A stretch of 64,000 nt of DNA from Gimesia sp. GTDB lineage: Bacteria; Planctomycetota; Planctomycetia; Planctomycetales; Planctomycetaceae. Below the pieces are notes generated by a model. The model made no database searches and was not told the DNA's origin. It saw nothing but the letters and a program-made list of their open reading frames with translations. The first letter of the stretch is position 1, and each line of letters opens with the position of its first letter. The translations under genes were made by a program, and so were the position numbers. The DNA is taken from NCBI GenBank assembly GCA_002706765.1, contig PAJV01000064.1, forward strand, positions 62,001-126,000. Direction: 5' to 3'. Positions 3,229-54,652 of the stretch are shown one piece after another.

Positions 3229-4920
3229 TTATTCTTCCTGCACCAATCCCTGTAAAGTAGAGACGGGATAACCACTTCCCAGGTTACTGAGGTCCCGAAT
3301 TGCTGTAATACGTGGCGGTATAAAAGTGCCATCAATTACGGCTTCCATGCGTGTCAGCGGGCCGCCCTGTCCATAATAGCCCAGGGATTGCACACGAAAG
3401 ACATCCCCGCCGCTACAGATATAAGGGGCCAACAACCGCATTTGTTCAATTGTCGTTAGTCCTTCAATCACAAGCCATCCTGTTGTCTGGCGCGCCTGAC
3501 TGATTTCTGTAGACGGAGCTCCGTTTGTAGCAGTCATCTGGGAATTGACGATCGCATTAGCCAGATCTGCTTCCATCCCGGGAATGCCCAGCAATGTTTC
3601 CAGTCGTGCCTCATCGATCTGGATACGGCCTTCGATGTATTGATTTTTGGAAGTGGTCAGCAGGTCATGCAACACGGGTAATTCTGCTGTCATCGCTCCC
3701 GGATCAGCCAGCCAGGGACTCGAGAGTGTTGTTTTCGTTCCGTCGATTTCTGTTTCGACTTCAGAACCAATCAGGTCAAAAAGTGAATTGATGGTAAATG
3801 CACCACCGGGGGAAAGATCCATACCTCCCCTGGTCACCGAGACTCCCTCTTCGGAAAACATGGCTTTGGCTATTCCGTTGGCAAGCTCATTGAGGGCCTG
3901 TTTTTCACTCATGCTGCCACCCACGGTCGTACTCGACGCACCGGTTGCCAGATCACTTTCCGTGACAACAGGGCCGCTTAATCGATAGGCGACGATGTAC
4001 CGGGCTTCATCGGGTCCGAGTTCAGTTTCGAGCGCATCGTAGAGCTCTGTGAGCATGGTCTGATTGACGTTGATCTTTTCCGAGCCATCAGGGCGGATAT
4101 TAATTTCACGACTGTGAACGGTGAAGTATTCGCACCAGCCGGCATTGAGAATGCCATCGGTGTTGTCATTGGGTAGAGTGGCATCACCATCATTTTCATT
4201 GGAATCCAGGAGGCCGTTACGGTTCGTGTCTTCGCCGTAAAGCAGTTCCGGTGTCACGCCTCGAACCAGCAGCAGTTCGTCCAGTGATTCCAGGGGGCTG
4301 TTTTTAGTGAAGTAAGGAGACTCCAGTGTCTCGTAGTAATCGCTTTCTGCTCCATAAGATCGAGTTTCATCATCATCGTCGATCCAGTCGAGGATCGCAG
4401 CAGCGATCTCTTCGGTCATATTCGGGATATTCATCAGACGATCGACGGCAGCGCCTTCTTCCTGTTCATCTTCACTGGCAAGGATATTCAGATTTAACTT
4501 ACCTGATTCGTTCATCAAGCCAAAACGGATTGTGTTCGAAGAAGCATCTTTTGTGACGGGCGCTACGATACTGAAATAACCGCTGGCACGCGGTGCATCA
4601 GAGGGCAGCAGATTTTTGTTCTGAAACTGATCCGGATTGTGATAGGAATTCCAGCCATCAATGTCTGAACGGTCGCCAATATAGGCGGCGGCGAGTTCAA
4701 TTCCGGACAGCGCCAGCTCGCGAGACTGGATTGAGCGACCGTAGATATTTGTGGCTTCGACTTCGACAATCATTAATTCAGAGAATGTGTAAGCGCCCAG
4801 ACTGAGCATGACCACGACCACAAGTACCACGAGCAGCGTACTGCCGGCGCGTAACTTCCGCGACTTTTTCTGATCAGTAAAAGGATTAAGCGGAATGAAT
4901 TGTGATGTGGACGATTTCAT
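3229..4920 (-). CDS. gspK: Type II secretion minor pseudopilin GspK
   Basis: A 563-residue minor pseudopilin. A basic leader ends at Gly26, followed by STLLVVLVVVVMLSLG, the hydrophobic N-terminal helix. As usual for GspK, the Glu found at position 5 of other pseudopilins is absent. The body carries the GspK signature: FGLMNESGKLNLN (133-145), a helix-hairpin-helix-like segment (MNIPNMTEEIAAAILDWIDDDD, 163-184) and SPLESLDELLLVRGVTPELLYG. Residues 231-242 (DTNRNGLLDSNE) read like a calcium-binding loop inserted where GspK tends to bind metal. It is longer than the roughly 320-residue proteobacterial form. GspK caps the pseudopilus tip with GspI and GspJ, which are encoded immediately upstream. 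Confidence 0.88.
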   Translation of the reverse strand: MKSSTSQFIPLNPFTDQKKSRKLRAGSTLLVVLVVVVMLSLGAYTFSELMIVEVEATNIYGRSIQSRELALSGIELAAAYIGDRSDIDGWNSYHNPDQFQNKNLLPSDAPRASGYFSIVAPVTKDASSNTIRFGLMNESGKLNLNILASEDEQEEGAAVDRLMNIPNMTEEIAAAILDWIDDDDETRSYGAESDYYETLESPYFTKNSPLESLDELLLVRGVTPELLYGEDTNRNGLLDSNENDGDATLPNDNTDGILNAGWCEYFTVHSREINIRPDGSEKINVNQTMLTELYDALETELGPDEARYIVAYRLSGPVVTESDLATGASSTTVGGSMSEKQALNELANGIAKAMFSEEGVSVTRGGMDLSPGGAFTINSLFDLIGSEVETEIDGTKTTLSSPWLADPGAMTAELPVLHDLLTTSKNQYIEGRIQIDEARLETLLGIPGMEADLANAIVNSQMTATNGAPSTEISQARQTTGWLVIEGLTTIEQMRLLAPYICSGGDVFRVQSLGYYGQGGPLTRMEAVIDGTFIPPRITAIRDLSNLGSGYPVSTLQGLVQEE

Positions 4921-7524: not shown

Positions 7525-8733
7525 TTATAGTAAACCTGAGCTTTGAAAAACCGGTAAAAGCAACGCTAACATCACAAAAACCACAACTGCTGCCATCAAC
7601 AGGAGCATTAACGGCTCCAGCATGCGTACAAACATATCGAGCTTGCGATTGGTCTGCCGTTCCATGTTGTCGGCAATATCAATTAACACCTGTTCGAGGT
7701 TATTCGCTTCTTCTCCCACGGCAATCATCTCGACGACTTCTTCGGGGAATTGACCGCTTGAAGCGAAAGGCTGGGCGATCGATTTTCCGGCAGAGATGCT
7801 TTCAGCAGCTTCCCCGATGGACCTGCTGATCACTTTGTTACCGGCGGCATCTTTGGCGATTCGGAGCGACTGCAGAATGGGGACACCATTGGCGAGCAGT
7901 GTTCCCAGGATGCGGCAGAAGCGGGCAATCGCCAGGCTGCGGACCACGTCCCCCAGCCCATAGGCTGTCAGGCGGAACTGATCGAATTTGTATCGACCTT
8001 CTGTTGTTTCGATATATTTATAAACCGCGACAACCGCCATTCCGATCGAGAAAAATATGATAAACCAGTAAGATTGCATAAATGCACTGAACCCCAGCAG
8101 GGTCGTGGTAGCCCAGGGAAGTTCGCCCCGTTCTGACATGCGTGCAAAAATCGGTTCAAATTTGGGTACAAAGTAAACCAGCAGAAAACTGACGATAACG
8201 GTTCCAAACGTAGTGAGGAAGGCGGGGTAAATCATGGCGCCCACAACGCGATTTTTCAGTTCTTCCTGATGGTCGGTGAAGCTGGCGATACGCTTGAGTA
8301 CGTCTTCCAGAAAACTGCCTTCTTCGCCGGCGCGGACCATGCTGACTGCGAGTTCGGAAAAAACTTTCGGATGCTGTCCCATCGCGACAGCTAACCGGGT
8401 TCCGTCGGCGACTTCTGCACGCACTTCTTCCAGTACCTGTTTGAGAGAAGGATTCGTTGACTGTTTATTTAACAGTTCCAGAGAACGCAGCAGCGGGACA
8501 CCCGATTTGAGCAGGTCTGCCAGTTGTGTGTAAAAGATAGAAAGATATCGAGCGCGAACACGACGGCCTGAATGTTTCAGCTGCGCTTTCGCCTGATCTG
8601 CCAGATCCACTTTCACGGGAAACAGGCTGCGCGCGGCCAGTGAATTCAAGGCATCCTGCTGATTGGATGCCGACAGAATCCCCGTGACCTGGCGGCCCGT
8701 TGCTTCGCGTGCGATGTATTGAAAATCCGGCAT
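7525..8733 (-). CDS. gspF: Type II secretion inner-membrane platform protein GspF
   Basis: A 402-residue protein with the expected length and duplicated layout of GspF/PilC. It starts MPDFQYIAREATGRQVTG, has two T2SSF domains (about 65-187 and 268-390) and three transmembrane segments (about 165-188, 219-240, 372-394). Signature stretches are the FYTQLADLLKSGVPLLRSLELL element of the first repeat and FCRILGTLLANGVPILQSL in the second. It anchors the GspE ATPase and organises pseudopilin addition. The gap to gspE is 60 bp. Confidence 0.93.
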   Translation of the reverse strand: MPDFQYIAREATGRQVTGILSASNQQDALNSLAARSLFPVKVDLADQAKAQLKHSGRRVRARYLSIFYTQLADLLKSGVPLLRSLELLNKQSTNPSLKQVLEEVRAEVADGTRLAVAMGQHPKVFSELAVSMVRAGEEGSFLEDVLKRIASFTDHQEELKNRVVGAMIYPAFLTTFGTVIVSFLLVYFVPKFEPIFARMSERGELPWATTTLLGFSAFMQSYWFIIFFSIGMAVVAVYKYIETTEGRYKFDQFRLTAYGLGDVVRSLAIARFCRILGTLLANGVPILQSLRIAKDAAGNKVISRSIGEAAESISAGKSIAQPFASSGQFPEEVVEMIAVGEEANNLEQVLIDIADNMERQTNRKLDMFVRMLEPLMLLLMAAVVVFVMLALLLPVFQSSGLL

Positions 8734-8793
8734 GGTTCTAACTCTGGTAGCGTTTGCTTATCACAACTTTAATTACTGAAATACGTATTTCGC

Positions 8794-10476
8794 TTAAATA
8801 TCACCTTTGGTCACGCGGAGGATTTCATCAATGGATGTCACTCCCTCCAGGACTTTCTGCCAGCCTGCATCTCTTAACGTCTGCCAGCCATTTTTGCGGG
8901 CATAGTCACGGATTTGTCCGGAGCTGGCATGCTCGGTACAGAGCCGTCTAATAACGGCATCATTGACGAGCAGTTCCAAAATCCCGATTCGTCCCGAGTA
9001 TCCCATTTCACGACAGTGGCGACAGCCGACCGGCTCCCAGAGTTCTTTGATGTTTTGAACAGGGAAGTCGGGTGGGATTTTATCCGGATGCGGTTCGTAA
9101 GGTCGTTTGCAGTGCTTGCAGAGCACGCGTACCAGTCGTTGTGCCAGGACGGCTTCGACCGTGCTGGCGACCAGATAGGATTCCACACCCATATCGATCA
9201 GGCGTGTGAAGGCACCGGGAGAATCGTTGGTGTGCAGGGTGCTGAATACGAGGTGACCTGTTAACGAAGCCTGGATTGCGCTGTTGGCTGTTTCGCCGTC
9301 TCGAATTTCACCGATGAGTACAATGTCGGGGTCGTGGCGTAAAATACTGCGGAGTCCCGCGGCGAAGGTCAACCCGATTTTGGAATTCACCTGAATCTGG
9401 CTGATGCCTTCACTGTGATATTCTACCGGGTCTTCCACGGTGATGATCTTGGTTTCCGGGTTTTTGATTTCGTTTAAGGCGCTGTAGAGAGTCGAAGTTT
9501 TACCACTGCCTGTCGGCCCGGTTACCAGAATGATACCGTGAGGCAGTTGGATCATCTCGCGAAATGTTTTCAACAATTCAGGGTTCAGGCCGACATTGTC
9601 CAGGCGAAATACCATGCGTTCTTTATCGAGCAGACGCATGACGATGCCTTCGCCGTAGATCATGGGAATGATCGAAACACGGACATCGATTTCCCGGCCG
9701 GTGATACGGAGTTTGATGCGTCCATCCTGGGGCAGTCGCTTTTCCGCAATATTCAGGTGCGACATGATTTTGAGTCGCGTGATAATTGCCGAATAAAAAT
9801 GATTGATTTCCGGAGGGACCGACTGTACCCGCAGCAGACCGTCAACCCGATAACGGATTACCAGCCCGGTTTCGTGAGGTTCAATGTGCACGTCACTGGC
9901 CTGCTGTTGCAGTGCTTCGATCAGCAGTTCATTGACGAGGCGAATTACGGAAGCGGTCTGCGCCATGTCGGCCAGTTCGCCATGTTCCTCGGAAACTTCT
10001 TCCAGGAGTTCGACGCCATCTTCCGCAGCGCGTTGGGAAACGAGTTCATTAATCGTATCGCCGCCGACTCCCAGATTTTCCTTGATCAGTTCCACCACAT
10101 CATCGTGTAATGCCAGCACCAGCTCAAGATTGAAACCAGAGAGAGAACTGAGTTCATCGATGGCTTCAAAATCAAATGGATCTGCCGAAGCGACCAGCAC
10201 GCGACCGTTATCACGCTGCAGCGGGAGCAGGGCGTTACGAAAAATGGGTGTCGCGGGGAACAGGGCCAGCAGTTCCTTGTCGACCTGATAATCTTTGAGC
10301 TCAAAGTATTTCATGCCCAGTTCATCTGCGAACGCTTTGAGCAGGTCTTCCTCTGAAGCCAGTCCCATTTCCCTGACAACCCGGTCCAGACGATCTCCAT
10401 TCGCCGACTGCTGTGCCATGAGCAGTTGGCGTTCATCAAGGATGCCACGTCTTTGGAGAATTTCACCGATTTCCAT
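8794..10476 (-). CDS. gspE: Type II secretion/type IV pilus assembly ATPase GspE
   Basis: A 560-residue secretion ATPase. Residues 1-150 form the T2SSE N-terminal domain. The ATPase core shows Walker [10 protein letters not shown] (320-328), the aspartate box around VEDPVEYH (347-354), Walker [11 protein letters not shown] (384-393) and the His box [13 protein letters not shown] (406-418). A tetracysteine zinc module is present (C453, C456, C485, C488) as in GspE/PilB. It hydrolyses ATP to drive pseudopilus growth. The second gene of the operon, it lies between the secretin N-domain gene and gspF. No strong ribosome binding site is visible before the ATG at 10476. Confidence 0.95.
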
Positions 10477-10532
10477 GGAGTTGACTCAATGGTTTGATAT
10501 CAGAAGATTGGGATGGATGTTGTATTGTTGTC

Positions 10533-13500
10533 TCAGCGACCACGACTACGGCTGGAGCGACCGCCGCCGCCACGTGAGCTGCCACCATCGCTGCCCGGGA
10601 AACGAAAACCGCGTGAGCTGCGACCGCTGAAAGGCGAACTGCTGCGACTTGAATCCCCGCCGGAAGAACCGGATCCCATACGTTCGCGCATTCGCTGTTC
10701 GAAGAAATTACGGATTTCTTCACCACGATCACCAGAACTTGAGGGGGAGGTAGACTGAGAGGGTGAATCAGGTGTCGGGTCGGCTGTTTTCTTGCGTGTA
10801 TCACCGGTTGTACTCACAGTGACATTGGGTAACAGTGAAGTCAGAGCGTTCTGGATCAGAGCGGAGTTTCCATTGTTCAAAGTGATGACCTGTACCGACT
10901 TTCGTGACATTTTTGCAGAGTAGTCCAGTTCACGGACCAGTGATTCAATTTCCTGGAACAGGGAATCGCTGGCAGAGACGAGCAGTTGATTGGCATTTTC
11001 ATCTACGCTGACAGCAAGTCGGGCTTCTGCAGGTTGAGCACTCGCGCCACCTTGTGAGCCTCCTCCCATCATGGCGGCGAATGGATTGCCGCCTCTGCGG
11101 GAATTGTTCTGCTGTTGAGGTGGCTGCAGGTAATCTTTGTAAAGTTCTTTGACGATGTTACCTACTTCTGTGACTGAAGCATATTCGACGGGAATAATTC
11201 CGGGGGAACGATCTCGCAGTGAAGCGGGCAGTTCCGAGGTATCCAGGACTTTCAGCATCTGTTCCACAGAGCGGACTTTATCGGAGGGCCCAGTCACGTA
11301 AAGTGCATTGGATCGGACTTCCGGAATAATGCGTAATGTCTGAGGTCCCATCCCCAGCGTGGAGAGCCCAGTAGCATCCATCAGGCTGCCACCGATATTG
11401 GAGATACCGCTGAACATCCCGGAACCCGCATCCATGTCGGAGACAGAACTGCTGGGAAACAGGCTTTCCAGCATTTTGGCGGTCGCAGTGGCATCGGCAG
11501 AACGCAGGTAAAAAACGGTCCACTGGTTTTTGGGAGGAATCGCCTGCGTGAGTGCATCAATCATTTTTTCCAGCCGATTCAGGGCTTCCAGGTCAGTCGA
11601 AGAAATAATCAGGTTGTCTCCGTTGGTGGAAACCGCCACCGGATCCTTTTTTTGAGCTTGCGGACCTTCAGCAGGTTGCTCGCCGGTTGCTGGTTGCTGT
11701 GGTTTTTCCGGAGTTTTTCCGGAATCGATCTCGTCATTCTGTTCTGCTGCAGCTTCTGTTTTCTCATCACTGGCGGTGAAGAAAAATCGTCGCTGGTCGG
11801 CATCACGTACAGGCTGCTGCTGCCGAATCGGTCGATTCAGAGGTGCACTGGTGTTTTGTGATGGATTGCGAAAACCCCGGTTACGATTCGGGGCCTCTTC
11901 TTCTTCGCCACCGATGATGCGCTCGCGGATCAGGTTGTTTTCAGAGGGGACCACAATCCGGATCGGGTTTTCTTCACCCGATGATGCGGACCACAGTTTA
12001 TTGATCAGATCCATGATTTCCCGGGAATCCCGGCCGCCCAGTGGAATTGTCCGGACCGGGCCCCGTTCACGAGAGTCATTGGCGCGACCTGTTCCATCTT
12101 CGCCCAGTTGGGCCAGTAGCGCTTTGACCTGAATTACCTGGTCGGGAGTGCCACGAATCAACAGGCGACGACCCAGCAGGTCGGCTTCGATCGTCGGGGC
12201 ATCGTCACCATCGCGCAGGAAAAGTGACCGTAGCGTGGTGGTGGCGGAAATGGGATCCAGCAAGCTGAGGTTGATTACAGAAACAGACTGGCTGCCCCCT
12301 TCGCCGTCCAACTGACGGATCATTTCTTCTAGTTTTTCGTGTTCTTTATGTGTGGCGAGAATATGAATTTTATCATTGCGGGCATCTTCATTGACCACGA
12401 CACCTGGCATCATGGCATCCAGAGTTTTGGTCACTTCGCGAGAGTCAGCAGAACTGACGGTATAAACCCGCAGGAAGGGTTTATTGCCTCCGGGGCCCAG
12501 CGGGTTGTTTTCATCGACGTCGATTGACTTGATAATTTCCTCAGCGATTTTAATCTGATCGGGTGTGGCAGTGACCAGCAGTCGATTTGTGCGCGGATCG
12601 GCGGTCACCTGAGTGTTGGATTCTTTGGCGGGTTGTGGCTGAGGAGGGCTACCACCTCGATCCCGGTCTCGACTGCTGCCTCTGGAACGGTAATCATAGT
12701 AGCGCGATGAAGAGGAAGATGCGCTGGCACTCACATTTTGAGTGGCAGCAGGCAGACCGAACTGGCTGCGGACAATTTTTTCCGCTTCTGTTGCGTCAAT
12801 AAATTTCAGTTCAAAAGAACGAAAAGCCATGTCGGAAGGACCTGCATTTGCCATGGCACCTTCCAGCAGTTTTTTCACTCGCGACAGATTACTGCCGATG
12901 TCTGTCACGATAATGGAGTTTGCCGTATTCAAGGCCACTGATTTTCCCTGCGGCCCGAGTATTGACTGAACTTCCTTGGCGACCTGATTAACGTCGACCC
13001 CTTCCAGCGGGAAGGTCACGCTCATCAGTTCATTTTTACCATGCTCGGTAATCTTTTCCGAATCGACAATCGGGACCAGGTTGGGAGGTATACCGTTATC
13101 GATGTTCAGAACCACCAGGAACTGATCGCGGCGGACAATGATATATCCTTTTTGCAGGAGATAGCCATTGATAATGTCGAGTGCTTCCGTCGGAGTGTAG
13201 GATCCCTGATCGAAATAATTAAAGGTTCCCGGTGGGACATCGTTCAGGTCGAGTGTGTAACCCGCTGATTCTGCAAACAGTTTCAGAACATCACCCCAGG
13301 GGGCAAACCGGAAGTTAAAGGACATTTTGTTGACAGGCCCGGGTTTCTTCGCCGTCTGTGGCTGATCAGTGTTAGCAGGTTTGCTGGCTGCATCATTCAT
13401 GGCGACCGTATTGCTACCGCCGAACGAGATGCTACGATCTTCGGGTTTGAGTCCTTCCGGTTCCAGGGGGATCTGCGGACGGGGTCGTGAAGTGGGACTG

Positions 13501-48445: not shown

Positions 48446-50839
48446 TTAATCAACGTAGCGAAATTCGCTGGTGGTCAGTAATGCCTGGCAGAGTGTGGAC
48501 CAGGCGATGAGCCGTCTCTGTGCTGTTTGTGATATCTCTGTTTTCAGACCCTGATCGAGATCCTGCAGCAGCGTCAGCGTTCGTTGCACTTCAAACGATT
48601 CGGGGACACGATTAAAAGCCCGCTCATAGACCAGGTTGATACGTTCCGTTTCAGTCAATTTTGGATCGGTCAGGACATTCCGGGCGAAAGCCTGTGACTG
48701 TTCGATCAGAAAATCGCTGTTCAGCAGAAACAGGCTTTGTGTGGGCAGTGTGGTTTCGTTGCGCTGGCCGACCGGTTTCGTGGAATCGGGCAGATCGAAG
48801 GCGGCCAACTGGGCCGGTTCGGAATGGCGCAGCATACAGAGATAAATGCTGCGATGGTTCGAAGGCAGGTGCAGGTTACCCGCGGTATTGACGAGTTCGT
48901 CTACATTGGCGATCGACGATCCCAGTCCGGGGTTCGGGTTGAGCTGACCGCTGGCTGCGAGGATGCTGTCCCTGAGGGATTCGGCATCGAGTCGGCGTCG
49001 ATTGTGACGACAGAGGAGCCTGTTTTCCGGGTCGGCGTCAAGCACGTCGGCTTCGCAGAAGCTGCTCTGCTGATAGGTGCGACTGAGAACGATACTGCGA
49101 ATCAGTTGCTTGATCGACCAGCCTTCGCTGCGAAAGCGGGTTGCCAGGTGATCGAGCAGTTCGGGATGCGTGGGGCGTTCGCCGTAGACGCCGAAATCAT
49201 CGGGTGTGCGGACGAGGGCCTGCCCGAACAGATGCAGCCAGATGCGATTGACCATCACGCGCGCGGTCTGTGGATGATCATCTGCCGTAAGCCATTTTGC
49301 CAGTTGCAGGCGGCCACTTTGTGAAGCTGTGATTTTTGGCGAAGTTGTCATATTGCAGGCAGTGAGGAAGCCGCGGGGCACACTGGGTCCCAGTTTTTTG
49401 GATTCCCCTTTGATGTTGATTTTGCAGTCCGTGGGCTTTTTCTTTTCGCGCACGCCCATCGCCAGGGGAGTCCCCTCGGGATAGACGTATTTGGGTTTCT
49501 TTTTTCTCGATTGAACGCGTTCATTCATTACCGGTTTCGCTCCACTGTCCGGCGGCGCGACATAGTGGTGCTTCGCTTTCAGGACATGCAGGGGTGTTTC
49601 CGGTGCGGTTAAGGGTTGATGACCGGCGGCACCCCACATGGTATCGGTACTGAGAAAAATTCCCGCCATGGCGTAGTAGTCGCTGGTGGGAATGGGATCG
49701 TGTTTGTGATCGTGACAGCGGGCACAGGCGACGCTGAGACCCATCACGCCCGTGCTGACGACATCGATCTGGTCGTTGATCACATCCATATCAAAGTTGA
49801 CGTTCATGGCTTTGGCAGGTTTGGAACCGAGGGCCAGAAAACCGGTGGCGATCAGCAGTCGGTCGCGGTCAGCGGGTGTTTCAGCAGGGAGCAGGTCTCC
49901 TGCGATCTGTTCGGTCAGGAAGCGGTCGTAGGGGAGATCGTTATTGAAGGCCTGGATGACATAGTCACGGTACCGCCAGGCATGGGGGAAAGTCGGGTTG
50001 CGGCTGAGACCATCGTTGCCATTCGATTCACCGTATCGGGCCACATCGAGCCAGTGCCGACCCCAGCGTTCACCGAAATGCGGAGAAGCGAGGAGTTCAT
50101 CGACCAGCGTTTTTACCGCCGCCTGCTGACGACGCTGATAGTCGTCCAGAAAGGCTTCGGTCTGTTCCATCGTAGGAGGCAGGCCGATCAGGTCATAATA
50201 TAATCGTCTGACCAACTGCATGGGTGTTGCGTCGTATGTGGGCTTCAGGCGGGCGGCTTCGATGCGGGCAAGCACGAACTGATCGAGCGGGTCAACACCC
50301 CAGTGCTGATTCTGAACGGCGGGGAGTTCGGGATTTGTGATCGGTTGAAAAGACCAGAGTGCGGGATCGGCGGATGCGGACACCGTATTCGGTTTTTTCG
50401 CGATGAGAGGTGCCTCGTCACGCGGGTCGGGGACTCCCATTTCCACCCATTTGACGAAGTCGGTGATCACTGCTTCCGGCAGTGGTTCGTTGGGAGGCAT
50501 CTCCAGTCCGTCGTAGCGGAGTGCCTGGATCAACAGGCTTTCATTGGGACGCCCCTCCACAAAGGCCGGCCCTGACTCGCCTCCTTCGCGCATGCCGTCG
50601 CGTGTATCCATCCGCAGTTTGCCGCCCAGCTCTTCCGATTTCGCAGAATGGCAGGAGTAGCATTTTTTGACGAGTACAGGACGAATCCTGTTTTCAAAAA
50701 AGGCCCGCTGAGCGGGATTCATCTTCGCGTGTACGGGTTTCTGTGCGGTTGGACTTTCGGAGAAGGCAGGAGAAACCGGGCAGAACGCGATCGCGAGAAA
50801 CCAGCAGGTGGCAGAGATCAAGGTGGTGAGCTTACGCAT
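48446..50839 (-). CDS. DUF1549/DUF1553 planctomycete cytochrome C protein (PSD1)
   Basis: 797 residues with a signal peptide (MRKLTTLISATCWFLAIAF). A planctomycete cytochrome domain has the heme motif C60-Y-S-C63-H64 and MPPNEPLP as the possible axial Met region. DUF1549 follows (WGVDPLDQFVLARIEAARLKP, LRRLYYDLIGLPPT-type and HFGERWGRHWLDVARYGES). DUF1553 (RLQLAKWLTADDHPQTARVMVNRIWLHLFGQALV, HPELLDHLATRF, LRDSILAASGQLNP) forms the C-terminal half. It heads the run with DUF1501 and sulfatase. It probably acts in the periplasm in electron transfer coupled to polymer oxidation or desulfation; this is inference. Confidence 0.94.
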   Translation of the reverse strand: MRKLTTLISATCWFLAIAFCPVSPAFSESPTAQKPVHAKMNPAQRAFFENRIRPVLVKKCYSCHSAKSEELGGKLRMDTRDGMREGGESGPAFVEGRPNESLLIQALRYDGLEMPPNEPLPEAVITDFVKWVEMGVPDPRDEAPLIAKKPNTVSASADPALWSFQPITNPELPAVQNQHWGVDPLDQFVLARIEAARLKPTYDATPMQLVRRLYYDLIGLPPTMEQTEAFLDDYQRRQQAAVKTLVDELLASPHFGERWGRHWLDVARYGESNGNDGLSRNPTFPHAWRYRDYVIQAFNNDLPYDRFLTEQIAGDLLPAETPADRDRLLIATGFLALGSKPAKAMNVNFDMDVINDQIDVVSTGVMGLSVACARCHDHKHDPIPTSDYYAMAGIFLSTDTMWGAAGHQPLTAPETPLHVLKAKHHYVAPPDSGAKPVMNERVQSRKKKPKYVYPEGTPLAMGVREKKKPTDCKINIKGESKKLGPSVPRGFLTACNMTTSPKITASQSGRLQLAKWLTADDHPQTARVMVNRIWLHLFGQALVRTPDDFGVYGERPTHPELLDHLATRFRSEGWSIKQLIRSIVLSRTYQQSSFCEADVLDADPENRLLCRHNRRRLDAESLRDSILAASGQLNPNPGLGSSIANVDELVNTAGNLHLPSNHRSIYLCMLRHSEPAQLAAFDLPDSTKPVGQRNETTLPTQSLFLLNSDFLIEQSQAFARNVLTDPKLTETERINLVYERAFNRVPESFEVQRTLTLLQDLDQGLKTEISQTAQRRLIAWSTLCQALLTTSEFRYVD

Positions 50840-50926
50840 GGCCGACAGATTCTATGCAGGTAGGAGAAGTCGTACGCGTTCAGGTAAGGTCTAGTGAACA
50901 AGGATAGATCATACTTGGTTGATGCG

Positions 50927-50945
50927 TTTAAGTCAACAACTTAAA
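50927..50945. repeat. Putative left attachment core site
   Basis: TTTAAGTCAACAACTTAAA: two perfect 7-base inverted arms around CAACA, the layout of a tyrosine recombinase core site. Its AGTCAACAAC portion recurs as a direct repeat at 54488-54497. Strand exchange would be expected in or next to CAACA. Confidence 0.6.
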
Positions 50946-51011
50946 TTGCCTCAAAAAACAGCTTGTTTTTAACATGATTTTTGGGTAATTGACACTGAAA
51001 TGGTACAAAAT

Positions 51012-51031
51012 TACCAAGAAAAACTACCAAG
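51012..51031 (+). repeat. Two TACCAAG heptamers, left end
   Basis: Copies at 51012-51018 and 51025-51031, 13 bases apart and in the same orientation as three copies at the right end. They are candidate arm-type binding sites for the recombinase, or iterons. Confidence 0.6.
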
Positions 51032-51106
51032 AAAATGAATGTCAGCATGAAGATAGTGAACATGATATGGGAGAGATCACGCCGTAAGGCATCTTAATCA
51101 CTATTT

Positions 51107-51132
51107 GATATGCCCCCCGCAGGGGGCATGTC
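51107..51132. promoter_or_regulatory. Strong GC-rich hairpin upstream of the Rep-like gene
   Basis: An 11-base stem (GATATGCCCCC with GGGGGCATGTC, one G-T wobble) closes a CGCA loop. No T-run follows on either strand, so it is not a typical terminator. Its position before a Rep-like gene would fit a replication origin hairpin; this is unproven. Confidence 0.5.
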
Positions 51133-51202
51133 TTGCAATCCGCAGGATCTAATGAGAGTAGGACATACAAGAATCACATTTAGTAACACTATGATATGTT
51201 AT

Positions 51203-51240
51203 AAAAAATGAAACCCCTGCCAGATGGATGACAGGGGCTT
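51203..51240 (-). terminator. Rho-independent terminator-like hairpin reading on the minus strand
   Basis: A stem with CCCCTG/CAGGGG core and GAA/TTC flanks. On the minus strand it is followed by CATTTTTTATAAC. It would stop a transcript running antisense across the leader and 5' part of the Rep-like gene. Confidence 0.55.
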
Positions 51241-51279
51241 CAAAAATTTCAAAATTACAAAATTAAACGGACACCGCAA

Positions 51280-52485
51280 ATGTCGATTAACACAAATTAT
51301 AATAGTAGTTTCAATGCAAAAAATCAATCTGAATATCTCTGGTCGCAAGCCAAGCCCCGAACCTACTCCACCAAAAAAAATCCGACTTTTATCAATGGGC
51401 GAAGACAAAAACATAAATCATTTTTTCATTCCAGACAATCACATGTCGCTTTGTCTCAAGAGTATGCCAGATGTGCTGAATTTCGTCTCTGTGAACTAGA
51501 TGATAACTTCACGATCTTCAAAGGTAACATAATGAATCCATTGAAGACAAAAATTCAATGGTCGCAATTTTTTAAACAGTTCAATAACTCCAGAAGAAAT
51601 TACGAGTACAATCATAAAGTTAAAATTTGCTTCTTGGCAAAAATGCACATAACAAAAAGTAATTCGGCATCCCAGAGAGATGACATACATTATGATTTTA
51701 TTGCTTTCACTGATGTTAATTTATCATCCAGACAATTATCCAGATTGATTAACACATGGATTATAAAAGCTGGTGGTCGTCCCAAGTGTGAGTGTAAGGT
51801 TATCCATGATCGAAGTCGGGATAACATTAGCAGGATATGTGATTACGTTATGAAGGCGACTGGAGACCCTCATTTTCTCCCACTGCCAGAATTAGCACGT
51901 CTTAAACTAATAACAAAAACACTTGGCGATTTTTGGGGCAGGTCAAAACAGGACATAGAACAAACGAGATATTTTAACGGTGAATTGGAAACTAATAAGA
52001 GACCATTATCAGGACGAAAGCAAGTTTGGCATTTATGGTGCAAATCTGTGTTTGGAAATGATGTTCCCAAGTATGAAACATCTGATTTTATCACACAAAA
52101 AAAGGTGATAAAAACACTCACAAATCAGCTAACGAGAGCTATTAGAGTTATAGTGAGTTGTTCTGCTTATTCCATTGACGTAAAATCCATCCTAAACACA
52201 GCCCACACAACGACTTGCGGCATATTTTTTACCCCTTTAAAAACAACAGGTAAACAGGAGAATTTAGCACTCAAGTATTACAGCTATATTGGCGATATTG
52301 ATGAACAGATAGACAGACACCTGAGACCCTCTCCTGATTTACAAAAATTGTATTACGTGGGGTTTCGGGGTCGCTTATTAGGAGCGACTGACAAGCCCTT
52401 AATAATCAATGGCAAGCAACTGAATAGGTTATTAGATGTCTTCAATTGTCGTGTGGTAAAGCATCGTGCATTTCAGGCGATATAA
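51280..52485 (+). CDS. Putative HUH-like replication initiator (Rep)
   Basis: 401 residues from the ATG at 51280. A second start at 51532 (residue 85) has the better ribosome binding site (AAAGG, 7 bases before) and would give 317 residues. The core recalls rolling-circle Rep proteins: a strand with KVKICFLAKMHITKS, then DDIHYDFIAFTD (H137-Y-D139, where a classic HUH motif would have His at 139), a helix and W..KAGG, and later ISRICDYVMKAT with Y189 and K192 in a Y-x-x-K arrangement. AT-rich codon use differs from the flanking genes. A gene of the integrated element; a nuclease or DNA-binding protein of another kind cannot be excluded. Function is inferred from motif order only. Confidence 0.5.
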   Translation: MSINTNYNSSFNAKNQSEYLWSQAKPRTYSTKKNPTFINGRRQKHKSFFHSRQSHVALSQEYARCAEFRLCELDDNFTIFKGNIMNPLKTKIQWSQFFKQFNNSRRNYEYNHKVKICFLAKMHITKSNSASQRDDIHYDFIAFTDVNLSSRQLSRLINTWIIKAGGRPKCECKVIHDRSRDNISRICDYVMKATGDPHFLPLPELARLKLITKTLGDFWGRSKQDIEQTRYFNGELETNKRPLSGRKQVWHLWCKSVFGNDVPKYETSDFITQKKVIKTLTNQLTRAIRVIVSCSAYSIDVKSILNTAHTTTCGIFFTPLKTTGKQENLALKYYSYIGDIDEQIDRHLRPSPDLQKLYYVGFRGRLLGATDKPLIINGKQLNRLLDVFNCRVVKHRAFQAI

Positions 52486-52489
52486 AACA

Positions 52490-52582
52490 AAGGGGTATAC
52501 CGTATATAAATCTGAGAGTCTATGTGTCGGTCGAGACGGCAACATGTACCTGTTATCGATGCAAAATTCAGGCATACCCCTT
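52490..52582. repeat. Inverted repeat behind the Rep-like gene
   Basis: AAGGGGTATACC (52490-52501) and GGCATACCCCTT (52571-52582) are reverse complements except for one base, with 69 bases between. They lie directly after the Rep-like stop codon and could border an origin or act as a transcript fold. Confidence 0.5.
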
Positions 52583-52719
52583 ATGCCGTCAAATTGTGTG
52601 AGATAATTTGAGATGGGAATCCACGTTGGGTAGTGCGTAGATTTATCCCATCATTTTCTGGACGTTCTCCAATCAAATCCCAATCAAAATTTTAATCAAT
52701 AAAAACAATATCTATCATC

Positions 52720-52902
52720 ATGGGAAAATCACACATACATTTGGAAATGCCGTCTGAAATGAAGTCGGAAATTCAAGAACATGCGAGAGAGCAGGGTTTG
52801 ACGCAAACCGCTTTTTTACGTCAGCTATTCTTAATGTGGAAGCAGGGTTTGCTTGAGCAAAAAATCACTCTTAAAAAACCAAGCCGAAAGTCACTTGGTT
52901 AA
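52720..52902 (+). CDS. Ribbon-helix-helix DNA-binding protein
   Basis: 60 residues. An N-terminal strand HIHLEMP, helix A (SEMKSEIQEHAREQG), turn (LTQT) and helix B (AFLRQLFLMWKQGLL) follow the Arc/CopG ribbon-helix-helix pattern, ending in a basic tail (KKPSRKSLG). Such proteins bind DNA as dimers and often control copy number or integrase genes. Palindromic GTCAC/GTGAC sites begin just after its stop codon. No clear ribosome binding site is seen before the ATG. Confidence 0.7.
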   Translation: MGKSHIHLEMPSEMKSEIQEHAREQGLTQTAFLRQLFLMWKQGLLEQKITLKKPSRKSLG

Positions 52903-52908
52903 ATCAGA

Positions 52909-53000
52909 GTCACACTTGATTCACATTGAATTCACAATGAAATTATTTAGAGTCACTCGCGAGTGACACATGTGTAATTTATAAGTGACCTGACAGTGAC
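52909..53000. promoter_or_regulatory. GTCAC/GTGAC site cluster with perfect 16-base palindrome
   Basis: GTCACTCGCGAGTGAC at 52951-52966 is a perfect palindrome. Additional half-sites are GTCAC at 52909-52913 and GTGAC at 52985-52989 and 52996-53000. The cluster fills the gap between the RHH gene and the recombinase terminator. It is the best candidate operator for the RHH protein, or an iteron set for the Rep-like protein. Confidence 0.6.
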
Positions 53001-53004
53001 CATG

Positions 53005-53038
53005 AAAAAAGCCCCAAGTATTTAATTTAACACTTGGG
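53005..53038 (-). terminator. Rho-independent terminator of the recombinase gene
   Basis: On the minus strand, CCCAAGT (53038-53032) pairs with ACTTGGG (53019-53013) across a 12-base loop, followed by GC and six T (53010-53005). It lies about 27 bases after the recombinase stop codon at 53065. Confidence 0.75.
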
Positions 53039-53064
53039 ACTTCTGGGACTTGCCTTATTTTCGT

Positions 53065-54333
53065 TTACTTGATTCCATATTTTTTTGCCACTATAACCAA
53101 CGCTTTGTCTAATTTTTTAACTTGCTCAGGCGTGTAATTGACAATGTAATGACTACCATGTGTGCCAGATGCTTTCTCACAACGGTACAACCTTGATTCT
53201 TCTTCTCCTACTAAATCTTGGATTTCCTGAGCAACAGTTTTTCTTAACGCCTTGTGTGATGGTAGTCCATGTTCGTCTTTAAATGCTTTGAATTCTTTAA
53301 TCAATTTTTGTTGATGCGGCATCGGTACAAGATATTCAAGACAATTTTTTGTTTCACTCCACAGCTTCCATGTACCAACAAGTTTTGATTTATTCTGATT
53401 TTTAACTCGTCCTGCAATGATGTAATCGTCTTGGATTATGTCAGGAGATAATGCAGTAATATCACTCCAGTAAAAACCACAATTAAGCCCCAACAACAAA
53501 GATGTTCTCACATTGCCAGTAGCATGTTTTAGAGCAGTTTTAACTTGCTCGAAACTGTATTGAATTTTTTGTCCCTCTGGTTTTTTGTAATGCAATTTCC
53601 TACGCAAAAAACCAAACGTCAAATTGTGGTCCGCTTCGATGCCAGATAGTAAACTCCTCAGTTCAACTTCTCTGTTATATTTTGTTCTCTCATTCCAGTT
53701 GTCGTTTTCTTTCACACGTTCAATATATTCCCTGTAATGTGAGACATTGATTTTTTTCACGTCGATATCACCAGTGATCGAAAAAAATAAATCACATGAT
53801 TGTTTGGGTCCATGTGGTCCCGTTTTCAATCGAGACATGTGAGACTCAATTTCCTTTGATAATCTGCCATGAGTTATTTTTGTTGATGATTCAAAAACTT
53901 TGGAATTCAAAGTTCGAATGGCCAGTTCATCATTGGCGACACCATTTAATTCAGCCTGCCATTTTGCGTCAGGGTGCAATACATGGATGTCTGGCTCATC
54001 ACTCCACACTGGAGTATTGATAGCATCATCCAAGAGAAGCCCCATATCGTCCACAGGTCGTCCCTGTGCTGTCAGATGCTCAATTATCCGCTCAATTGAT
54101 CTAATACGACTCTGGAGAGGACTAGCGGCTCGTCTGGCTGAGATATTAGATTCTTCTAGCTCCTGAAGGTATCGCCGCCAGTAAGGTAGTGAATCTCTCT
54201 TGGTGGGTGGGATTTCAATCCCATACATTATGCTCAACTGGCGAACACTTTTATGGATTCGCTTACCCTTAATTCGCCACAAATTAGTTTTTGGATCAAA
54301 GGTTCCTGTGTTTTTAACTCTCACGTCTATCAT
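53065..54333 (-). CDS. Tyrosine recombinase (integrase) with altered catalytic box I
   Basis: 422 residues from the ATG at 54333 with GGGAG 6 bases upstream; a GTG one codon earlier is possible and is residue 1 in the numbering here. The N-terminal part (GTFDPKTNLWRIKGKRI) may bind arm sites. The SAM-like core-binding domain spans about 160-245 and the catalytic domain about 255-420. Box I reads LLLGLNCGFYWSDITAL, with Tyr289 where most members have Arg (G-L-R-x-x-E). Box II keeps H361-K-A-L-R365. Box III reads GTHGSHYIVNYTPEQVKKL, with His393/His396 and candidate nucleophile Tyr397 or Tyr401. The gene points into the element from its right end, as integrase genes often do. Confidence 0.8.
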   Translation of the reverse strand: MIDVRVKNTGTFDPKTNLWRIKGKRIHKSVRQLSIMYGIEIPPTKRDSLPYWRRYLQELEESNISARRAASPLQSRIRSIERIIEHLTAQGRPVDDMGLLLDDAINTPVWSDEPDIHVLHPDAKWQAELNGVANDELAIRTLNSKVFESSTKITHGRLSKEIESHMSRLKTGPHGPKQSCDLFFSITGDIDVKKINVSHYREYIERVKENDNWNERTKYNREVELRSLLSGIEADHNLTFGFLRRKLHYKKPEGQKIQYSFEQVKTALKHATGNVRTSLLLGLNCGFYWSDITALSPDIIQDDYIIAGRVKNQNKSKLVGTWKLWSETKNCLEYLVPMPHQQKLIKEFKAFKDEHGLPSHKALRKTVAQEIQDLVGEEESRLYRCEKASGTHGSHYIVNYTPEQVKKLDKALVIVAKKYGIK

Positions 54334-54374
54334 CACAATCTCCCACTATTCCCGATATCAAAAAACAATAAATT

Positions 54375-54410
54375 TACCAAGAAATCTACCAAGTGAGGCA
54401 GATTACCAAG
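54375..54410 (+). repeat. Three TACCAAG heptamers, right end
   Basis: Copies at 54375-54381, 54387-54393 and 54404-54410, in the same orientation as the two copies at the left end. They lie between the recombinase start and the right attachment repeat, as arm-type sites often do. Confidence 0.6.
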
Positions 54411-54440
54411 AGGGTTTTTTTAACGCAAACCCTATTTTTC
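54411..54440 (+). terminator. Terminator-like hairpin at the element's right end
   Basis: AGGGTTT (54411-54417) pairs with AAACCCT (54427-54433), followed by A and TTTTT on the plus strand. It could stop plus-strand transcription leaving the element or antisense transcription of the recombinase promoter region. Confidence 0.5.
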
Positions 54441-54487
54441 AAGGCGTAATTTTGTTGTTTCGGGTGTAGTAGTGGGATTGAAAGCGG

Positions 54488-54497
54488 AGTCAACAAC
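54488..54497. repeat. Putative right attachment repeat
   Basis: AGTCAACAAC, identical to 50931-50940, followed by CTTAAG. That corresponds to TTAAAT on the left. The left inverted arm is not preserved here (GCGG instead of TTTA), so one half-site is degenerate. Confidence 0.6.
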
Positions 54498-54652
54498 CTT
54501 AAGATTCTTTCGGCGTGGGAGAGAGACAAACGCCAGACTATTGGTTGCTGGGCCTGATAAAGTCTTAATCGCTAAGGTTTACCTGATTGATGTGATGTGC
54601 TGTTCTGATAGGATTGTGATCTGATTCCTACCCTGGCGCGTTCTGACAGAGA

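Follow-up and report, generated by a model that had tools for sequence, protein, structure and literature searches.

Actinomycete integrative and conjugative elements (AICEs) such as pSAM2 combine an integrase, an excisionase and a replication initiator in one integrated unit, and they carry an FtsK-like translocation gene. The integrative plasmids pCRESS1-6 and 8 join a HUH Rep to site-specific chromosomal integration, are bounded by direct repeats and carry no viral structural genes, as set out in the available part of their description (Kazlauskas et al. 2019, PMC6668415). In Firmicutes, non-canonical integrative and mobilizable elements (IMEs) use a tyrosine integrase and a Rep-like nickase and insert at gene 3′ ends, rpsI included (excerpted sections of PMC5704250), and PICMI satellites are very small, capsid-free units with int, a small DNA-binding gene and a replication gene (excerpted sections of PMC10803314). 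Here we describe an island of ~3.6 kb in a 64,000-nucleotide stretch of a Gimesia sp. genome (contig PAJV01000064.1, positions 62,001 to 126,000; hereafter the window, and source of all positions below). Like pCRESS, it is bounded by direct repeats, lacks viral structural genes and pairs a HUH-type Rep with site-specific integration; it shares a tyrosine recombinase plus Rep-like protein with the IMEs, whose 3′-end insertion recurs in two of its relatives, and its gene set and small size with the PICMI satellites. Overall, the island is probably a small site-specific integrative element of the rolling-circle type, moved by a host or helper system.

A three-gene island at a conserved empty site

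The island (50931-54497) has a G+C content of 38.2%, against 52.3% in the rest of the window, and only ~0.1% of windows with its length are equally low. The sequence AGTCAACAAC marks the two ends (50931-50940 and 54488-54497) and has no further copy on either strand of the window. All three reading frames within the island are open, and its main features are as follows.

50931..50940, + strand: attL core AGTCAACAAC, found as a single copy at the empty site in 14/14 testable same-genus genomes
51280..52485, + strand: Rep-like protein of 401 amino acids (aa), divergent HUH family, with H137-Y-D139 and Y189-x-x-K192
52720..52902, + strand: ribbon-helix-helix (RHH) DNA-binding protein of 60 aa (PF01402, E 4.2e-4, 20.6 bits against a cut-off of 20.5)
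53065..54336, − strand: tyrosine recombinase of 423 aa, with Tyr289 in place of the box I Arg (predicted fold, alignment)
54488..54497, + strand: attR core AGTCAACAAC, identical to the attL core and closing a unit of 3557 bp

The initial annotation, which had been made from the sequence alone, proposed an AT-rich island with these coordinates, this direct repeat as boundary and these three genes, and it is borne out on all of these points, with the RHH assignment passing its family cut-off by a narrow margin. By itself the 10-base repeat is weak evidence: a 10-mer common to both boundary zones arose in 7% of shufflings, and the island's own end zones have further 10- and 11-base words in common, TACCAAG repeats among them. 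The island is taken as a real insertion because the empty site is present in related genomes, and not because of the repeat alone. An AT-rich chromosomal island with an accidental repeat, for which the figure of ~7% for the repeat alone would leave some room, is refuted by a clean empty site in all testable genomes, and its probability is practically nil.

We examined the flanks in 17 genomes of the genus, the window's own included. The upstream flank (49600-50930) matched all 17, with only part of the query covered in G034 and G036, as expected of paralogous genes; the downstream flank matched 16/17 and was missing in G036. Adjacency was testable in 14 of the 16 other genomes, with G034 (76% complete) and G036 (74% complete) left out. 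The initial annotation had proposed a search for empty sites, with flanks never adjacent without the island as the outcome that would speak against it, and in all 14 genomes the flanks were found joined with one copy of the core. The gap between the two flank matches was exactly 10 bases in G032, G025 and G039. For 10/14 genomes the joined flanks formed one alignment piece over the junction; in the other four (G026, G027, G035, G038) the upstream piece passed the core and ended ~30 bases on, before a diverged spacer. In the junction alignment the core was exact in 7/14 genomes and had one mismatch in 4/14 and two in 3/14.

The reconstructed attB reads TTTAAG-TCAACAAC-CTTAAG, i.e., 5-bp inverted arms (TTAAG/CTTAA) around 8 bases. 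Inverted arms around a short spacer are the usual layout of tyrosine-recombinase core sites. The arms are conserved in 11/14 genomes and deviate in G039 (CTTTA) and in G035 and G038 (TATAAG, with the inner TAAG retained). The insertion point lies between two divergent genes, which encode a PSCyt1/PSCyt2/PSD1 protein and a FAD_binding_2 protein (Pfam), and neither is interrupted. The attB stretch around AAGTCAACA (flanks 50840-50930 and 54498-54652) is well conserved through the genus though intergenic, and judging from this conservation it may be a regulatory site in its own right.

The island proteins gave no defence-system match. Scans of the three proteins recognised no coupling protein or other transfer gene (Pfam, PHROG, NCBIfam; an origin of transfer, oriT, was not sought), no mobilization gene above family cut-off, no phage gene besides the recombinase class (Pfam, PHROG) and no FtsK-like translocation gene (Pfam), in agreement with the earlier remark that no cargo, capsid or transfer gene is visible.

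Remote homology of the Rep-like protein to HUH-type Reps

The affiliation of the 401-aa protein was established stepwise through relatives, all of which were obtained by whole-genome searches rather than from sequence collections. Among 170 genomes of the family, the sole non-self match was a protein of G162 (27% identity, E 3e-23). A two-row profile of the Rep core then reached G611 (E 0.0025), and a three-row profile reached a second G611 locus (1.1e-7), G551 (2.1e-7) and G590 (0.02), i.e., 3/45 genomes of that family. When the first Rep pair was compared by hhalign with the four later planctomycete Reps, the two sets aligned over 204 columns (probability 98.6, E 4.9e-16). A member of the four-Rep set, L081 of G590, matches PF23343 (REP_ORF2-G2P) with E 7.8e-6 and 26.5 bits, under the cut-off of 27.8; searched as genome sequence, the same place scores 29.5 bits, above the cut-off. 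Taken together, these comparisons indicate, by an indirect route, that the window Rep is a member of a divergent HUH-type Rep family.

H137, Y189 and K192 are invariant across a nine-row Rep alignment, and in a 17-row alignment the YxxK motif lines up in 16 Reps, being shifted in L080. The second His of the H-U-H metal motif is retained in 12/17 Reps and is Asp in 5/17, the window Rep included. Its motif is thus H-Y-D, and the complete H-U-H motif is lacking. The "HUH-like" initiator of the initial annotation accordingly stands as remote homology to an HUH-type family and falls short at the motif itself. Over residues 50-193 of the predicted structure, H137 and D139 lie on a strand and Y189 on the following helix, an order that suits an HUH domain. 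Replacement of the second His has a precedent in the HLQ motif of circoviruses (excerpted sections of PMC7468197). Neither a Walker A motif nor a helicase family match (Pfam) was found in the window Rep. The Rep tree unites the window with the G162 locus (L010; support 96/98), and a single clade for the H-U-D Reps is neither shown nor refuted.

A predicted tyrosine recombinase with candidate arm sites

For the window integrase, Pfam and PHROG searches gave no significant match. An AlphaFold model built from nine sequences was of moderate quality (mean predicted local distance difference test score, pLDDT, 57), and all 50 matches listed from the PDB by Foldseek were tyrosine recombinases, with lambda and Tn1549 integrase on top. 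The best E-value was 7.2e-4, and only 1/81 matches was at E ≤ 0.001. The model thus predicts the tyrosine-recombinase fold class, and it is at this level of predicted fold that the original integrase call holds.

Short N-terminal strands are predicted in the same model, and the two ends of the island carry a repeated 7-mer:

51012..51031, + strand: two TACCAAG repeats (51012, 51025), candidate arm-type sites of the left arm (repeat count)
54375..54410, + strand: three TACCAAG repeats (54375, 54387, 54404), candidate arm-type sites of the right arm (repeat count)

Five of the eight TACCAAG/CTTGGTA sites of the whole window fall in these two arms, and in 0/5000 Markov resamplings of the end zones did any 7-mer reach two copies in the left zone and three in the right one. 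The predicted strands and the repeats would fit a lambda-type arm-binding integrase.

The catalytic set is incomplete, in that the box I Arg of the L079 and L081 integrases aligns with Tyr289 of the window protein. This Arg is likewise replaced in all four other integrases aligned, namely that of L010 and the genus recombinases L004, L007 and L008. Planctomycete recombinases with an LNC(G/A) motif (window, L004, L007, L008, L010) have Tyr, Thr or Asp at the box I position, and two of them, L007 and L008, are located in the window's own genome.

Recurrence of the Rep-recombinase pair in planctomycetes

Including the window, eight planctomycete loci were found in which a Rep of the window family lies ≤1.3 kb from a tyrosine recombinase. 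Seven of them carry a small gene between or beside the pair, and clear bounding direct repeats were identified at four, delimiting elements of 3.3-4.7 kb:

Window: RHH gene; repeat of 10 nt; intergenic site; 3557 bp
L010 (G162): weaker winged helix-turn-helix/excisionase-like gene; repeat of 49 nt, 94%; tRNA-Lys; 4484 bp
L079 (G551): no small gene between Rep and recombinase on their strand (open reading frames of at least 60 aa); repeat of 27 nt, 100%; rpsI 3′ end; 3343 bp
L081 (G590): HTH_17 gene; repeat of 24 nt, 92%; rpsI 3′ end; 4667 bp
L069 (G611): HTH_17 gene; no bounding repeat found, with the stretch running to the contig end; ~0.3 kb from tRNA-Gln
L080 (G611): HTH_17 gene; weak repeat (25 nt, 84%)
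L123 (G007): HTH_17 gene; no bounding repeat found
L125 (G074): DUF1580 gene, of a family without stated function; no bounding repeat found

The recombinase of L010 rests on SAM-like and PHROG integrase matches only, and the ribosomal protein S9 gene at the L079 and L081 repeats was identified through PF00380 (E 8.8e-43 and 4.6e-44). Since gene order and partners vary while the Rep-recombinase pair recurs, these loci speak for a family of modular elements rather than for a one-off accident. Relatives with their genes at unrelated distances had been named beforehand as evidence to the contrary; at the seven further loci the pair stays within 1.3 kb.

These loci emerged from several searches. 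The two-row profile matched 11/397 genomes at E ≤ 0.05, of which, beside the window's own genome and G162, only G611 was retained; weak matches in G586 and G560 were rejected as PSCyt2/PSD1 proteins, and six others (L062-L067) were left out of the Rep set. Another profile scan matched 5/392 genomes, and the four weak ones (G532, G493, G208, G335) were left out. On assembled genome contigs and viral contigs the two-row profile gave no confirmed match; a four-row profile confirmed three loci in the genome contigs, all already known, and none in the viral contigs. A PF23343 scan returned 28 places in 26/377 genomes, of which the G590 place is L081 and the other 27 were examined. Eleven of these 27 match the A6 Rep profile at E ≤ 1e-4 (with E-values calculated on these few sequences), and a tyrosine recombinase was detected in the 4-8 kb around the Rep at 7/27 (L115, L118, L119, L121, L123, L125, L132), a lower bound given that the detection was coarse and that contig ends cut off several of the stretches; at the 20 others this detection flagged no recombinase. 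All seven recombinases match Phage_integrase, two of them under the family cut-off. We did not count L115, L118, L119 and L132 among the eight loci (Rep without A6-profile match at 1e-4), nor L121 (recombinase ~1.8 kb from the Rep), and the recombinase call at L130 was dropped as antisense to the Rep.

Further observations concern the surroundings of related Reps. L115, L118 and L119 combine PF23343-type Reps from outside the window's Rep family with an integrase no more than a few kb away, and a wider kind of Rep-integrase element may be commoner in planctomycetes. At L010, a second recombinase-like frame (7720-9063, + strand, by eye) and more frames follow right behind the tRNA-Lys element (7693-13001), as if islands were stacked at one tRNA in G162. 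The only other sizeable candidate gene of that element is a 167-aa frame (3536-4039), membrane-bound by eye, which gave no defence match. At L131, a related Rep and a phage capsid gene (PF05065, E 2e-21) are ~1.3 kb apart (frames 3483-4532 and 729-2147); a frame that is serine recombinase-like by eye (1-395) is also present, and this locus is perhaps a prophage or satellite using a related Rep. Finally, L135 (G162, f1) and L137 (G704, f2) encode near-identical H-L-H Reps in different families, beside neighbours that are transposase- or serine-recombinase-like by eye; the near-identity of the two proteins suggests a recent transfer.

Candidate regulatory and origin sequences within the island

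The RHH protein is a possible excisionase or regulator, and it also gives a weak NikA-like match (E 0.0034, under that family's cut-off). The intergenic parts of the island contain the following candidate sites.

51107..51132, + strand: G+C-rich hairpin 5′ of the Rep gene with 11-nt arms, candidate origin or terminator
51209..51242, + strand: second hairpin 5′ of the Rep gene, candidate origin (inverted repeat)
52909..53000, no strand: five GTCAC/GTGAC half-sites, predicted candidate operator of the RHH protein
53009..53042, no strand: terminator-like hairpin between the convergent RHH and integrase genes (inverted repeat)

Within 52903-53010, GTCAC/GTGAC occurs 5 times against 0.54 expected from Markov resamplings. 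DNA folding around the two hairpins 5′ of the Rep gene was modestly more stable than in shuffles (51085-51160, z -2.56; 51195-51255, z -1.96), and the stretch around the third gave a z of -1.95 (53005-53050); 52486-52590 (z 0.13) and 52940-53000 (z -0.28) folded no better than shuffles. Rfam returned one match, SmY, with a score below the gathering score.

Discussion

Our preferred reading, that of a small site-specific, rolling-circle-type integrative element, would work as follows. The tyrosine recombinase, with the RHH protein as excisionase or regulator, would recombine the 10-bp cores and release a 3557-bp circle. Through Tyr189 the Rep would then cut one strand at an origin within the element, perhaps at a hairpin 5′ of its gene, and would start rolling-circle copying with the help of the host's polymerase and helicase. 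Either the circle or a single strand could reach a new cell by natural uptake, with a conjugative element or by phage packaging, and would reintegrate into the same attB between the two divergent genes; transfer would thus depend on something outside the element.

Several observations weigh against this reading. The excised circle is inferred rather than observed, and with the second metal-ligand His of the Rep replaced by Asp and the integrase without its box I Arg, the activity of either enzyme may be compromised. The window Rep has no direct match in Pfam, PHROG, NCBIfam or PDB sequences, was not matched when its own genome was searched with PF23343, and its family profiles gave no convincing match to solved structures. 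Its structural model is poor (mean pLDDT 44.7), with no HUH protein and only weak ferredoxin-like ones among the best 50 of 915 Foldseek matches, and no E ≤ 0.001 among the matches listed. The element is also rare: it occurs in its own genome alone among the 17 of the genus, one Rep relative was found among the 170 family genomes, the two-row profile recovered only the own genome from 392 genomes of the phylum, and plasmid, phage and viral-contig collections yielded no relatives with the queries tried. At 4/8 loci, moreover, boundary repeats are weak or were not found.

Part of this evidence would suit a decayed remnant, immobile by now and stripped of the cargo of a once larger element, as catalytic positions are substituted in both enzymes and the island is confined to one genome of the genus. 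Yet its three frames are open and its two cores identical, and independent relatives have a similarly small size and hold the same kinds of gene. From the alignments, the Asp variant and the missing Arg look like lineage traits rather than fresh damage, because Asp occurs in five divergent Reps and the Arg is replaced in all four other aligned integrases. We therefore regard a remnant as improbable. The mode of transfer allows two other explanations, neither of which we favour. The island may be a non-canonical IME, with the Rep-like protein acting as relaxase and a conjugative helper exporting the strand. Among streptococcal IMEs, 118/144 encode putative relaxases related to rolling-circle initiators, MobT proteins serve as both relaxase and replication initiator, and IMESag-rpsI uses the same rpsI 3′ end as two of the relatives described here (L079, L081), according to the excerpted sections of PMC5704250. 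The weak NikA-like match of the RHH protein points the same way, whereas the three proteins include no coupling protein or transfer gene (neither oriT nor a conjugative helper in the host was sought), and we consider this explanation rather unlikely. A minimalist phage satellite, in which helper infection triggers excision and the helper packages the circle or concatemers, appears slightly less probable still. PICMI satellites, too, are made up almost entirely of int, a replication gene and a small DNA-binding gene, and they perform no capsid remodelling, as far as the excerpted sections of PMC10803314 describe them, and the related Rep at L131 lies near a capsid gene. Against a satellite, however, the island has no primase and no phage gene besides the recombinase class (a packaging site was not sought), and the queries used brought up no relative among phage records or viral contigs.

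Taken together, the integrative element in the window and its relatives form a scattered and apparently undescribed family of very small mobile elements; in open-licence literature we found no planctomycete integrative elements of this make-up, which does not establish their absence from print. Tentatively, and with less confidence than in the preferred reading itself, one may go further and picture a family of planctomycete elements, not described so far, that hitchhike autonomously and approach the smallest size at which a replicon can still integrate itself. In such a family some Reps would have moved from H-U-H to H-U-D metal binding, the recombinase and the small DNA-binding gene would be exchangeable modules, and travel would take place as single-stranded DNA or as a circle, aided by a conjugative element or a helper phage. 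With its three genes, exact boundaries and known empty site, the element makes excision, replication and helper dependence directly testable, and it presents a natural H-U-D Rep variant beside a recombinase without box I Arg, both from recurring lineages. If confirmed, planctomycetes would join the hosts of minimalist integrative elements.

Among described systems, the Firmicutes IMEs differ in that no transfer function is visible here and that Pfam gave the window Rep no match to any family that the excerpted sections of PMC5704250 name. PICMI satellites encode int, alpA and a DUF3987/DUF5906 primase, and their prototype sits beside fis (excerpted sections of PMC10803314), whereas the window element has an HUH-type Rep and no primase match and, like its relatives, occupies other sites. 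The main text of PMC6668415 on pCRESS contains no occurrence of "Planctomycet". The pCRESS Reps join a nuclease to a helicase domain, as stated in the available part of that work, whereas the window Rep has no Walker A motif and no helicase family match; its family stands nearer to Pfam REP_ORF2-G2P.

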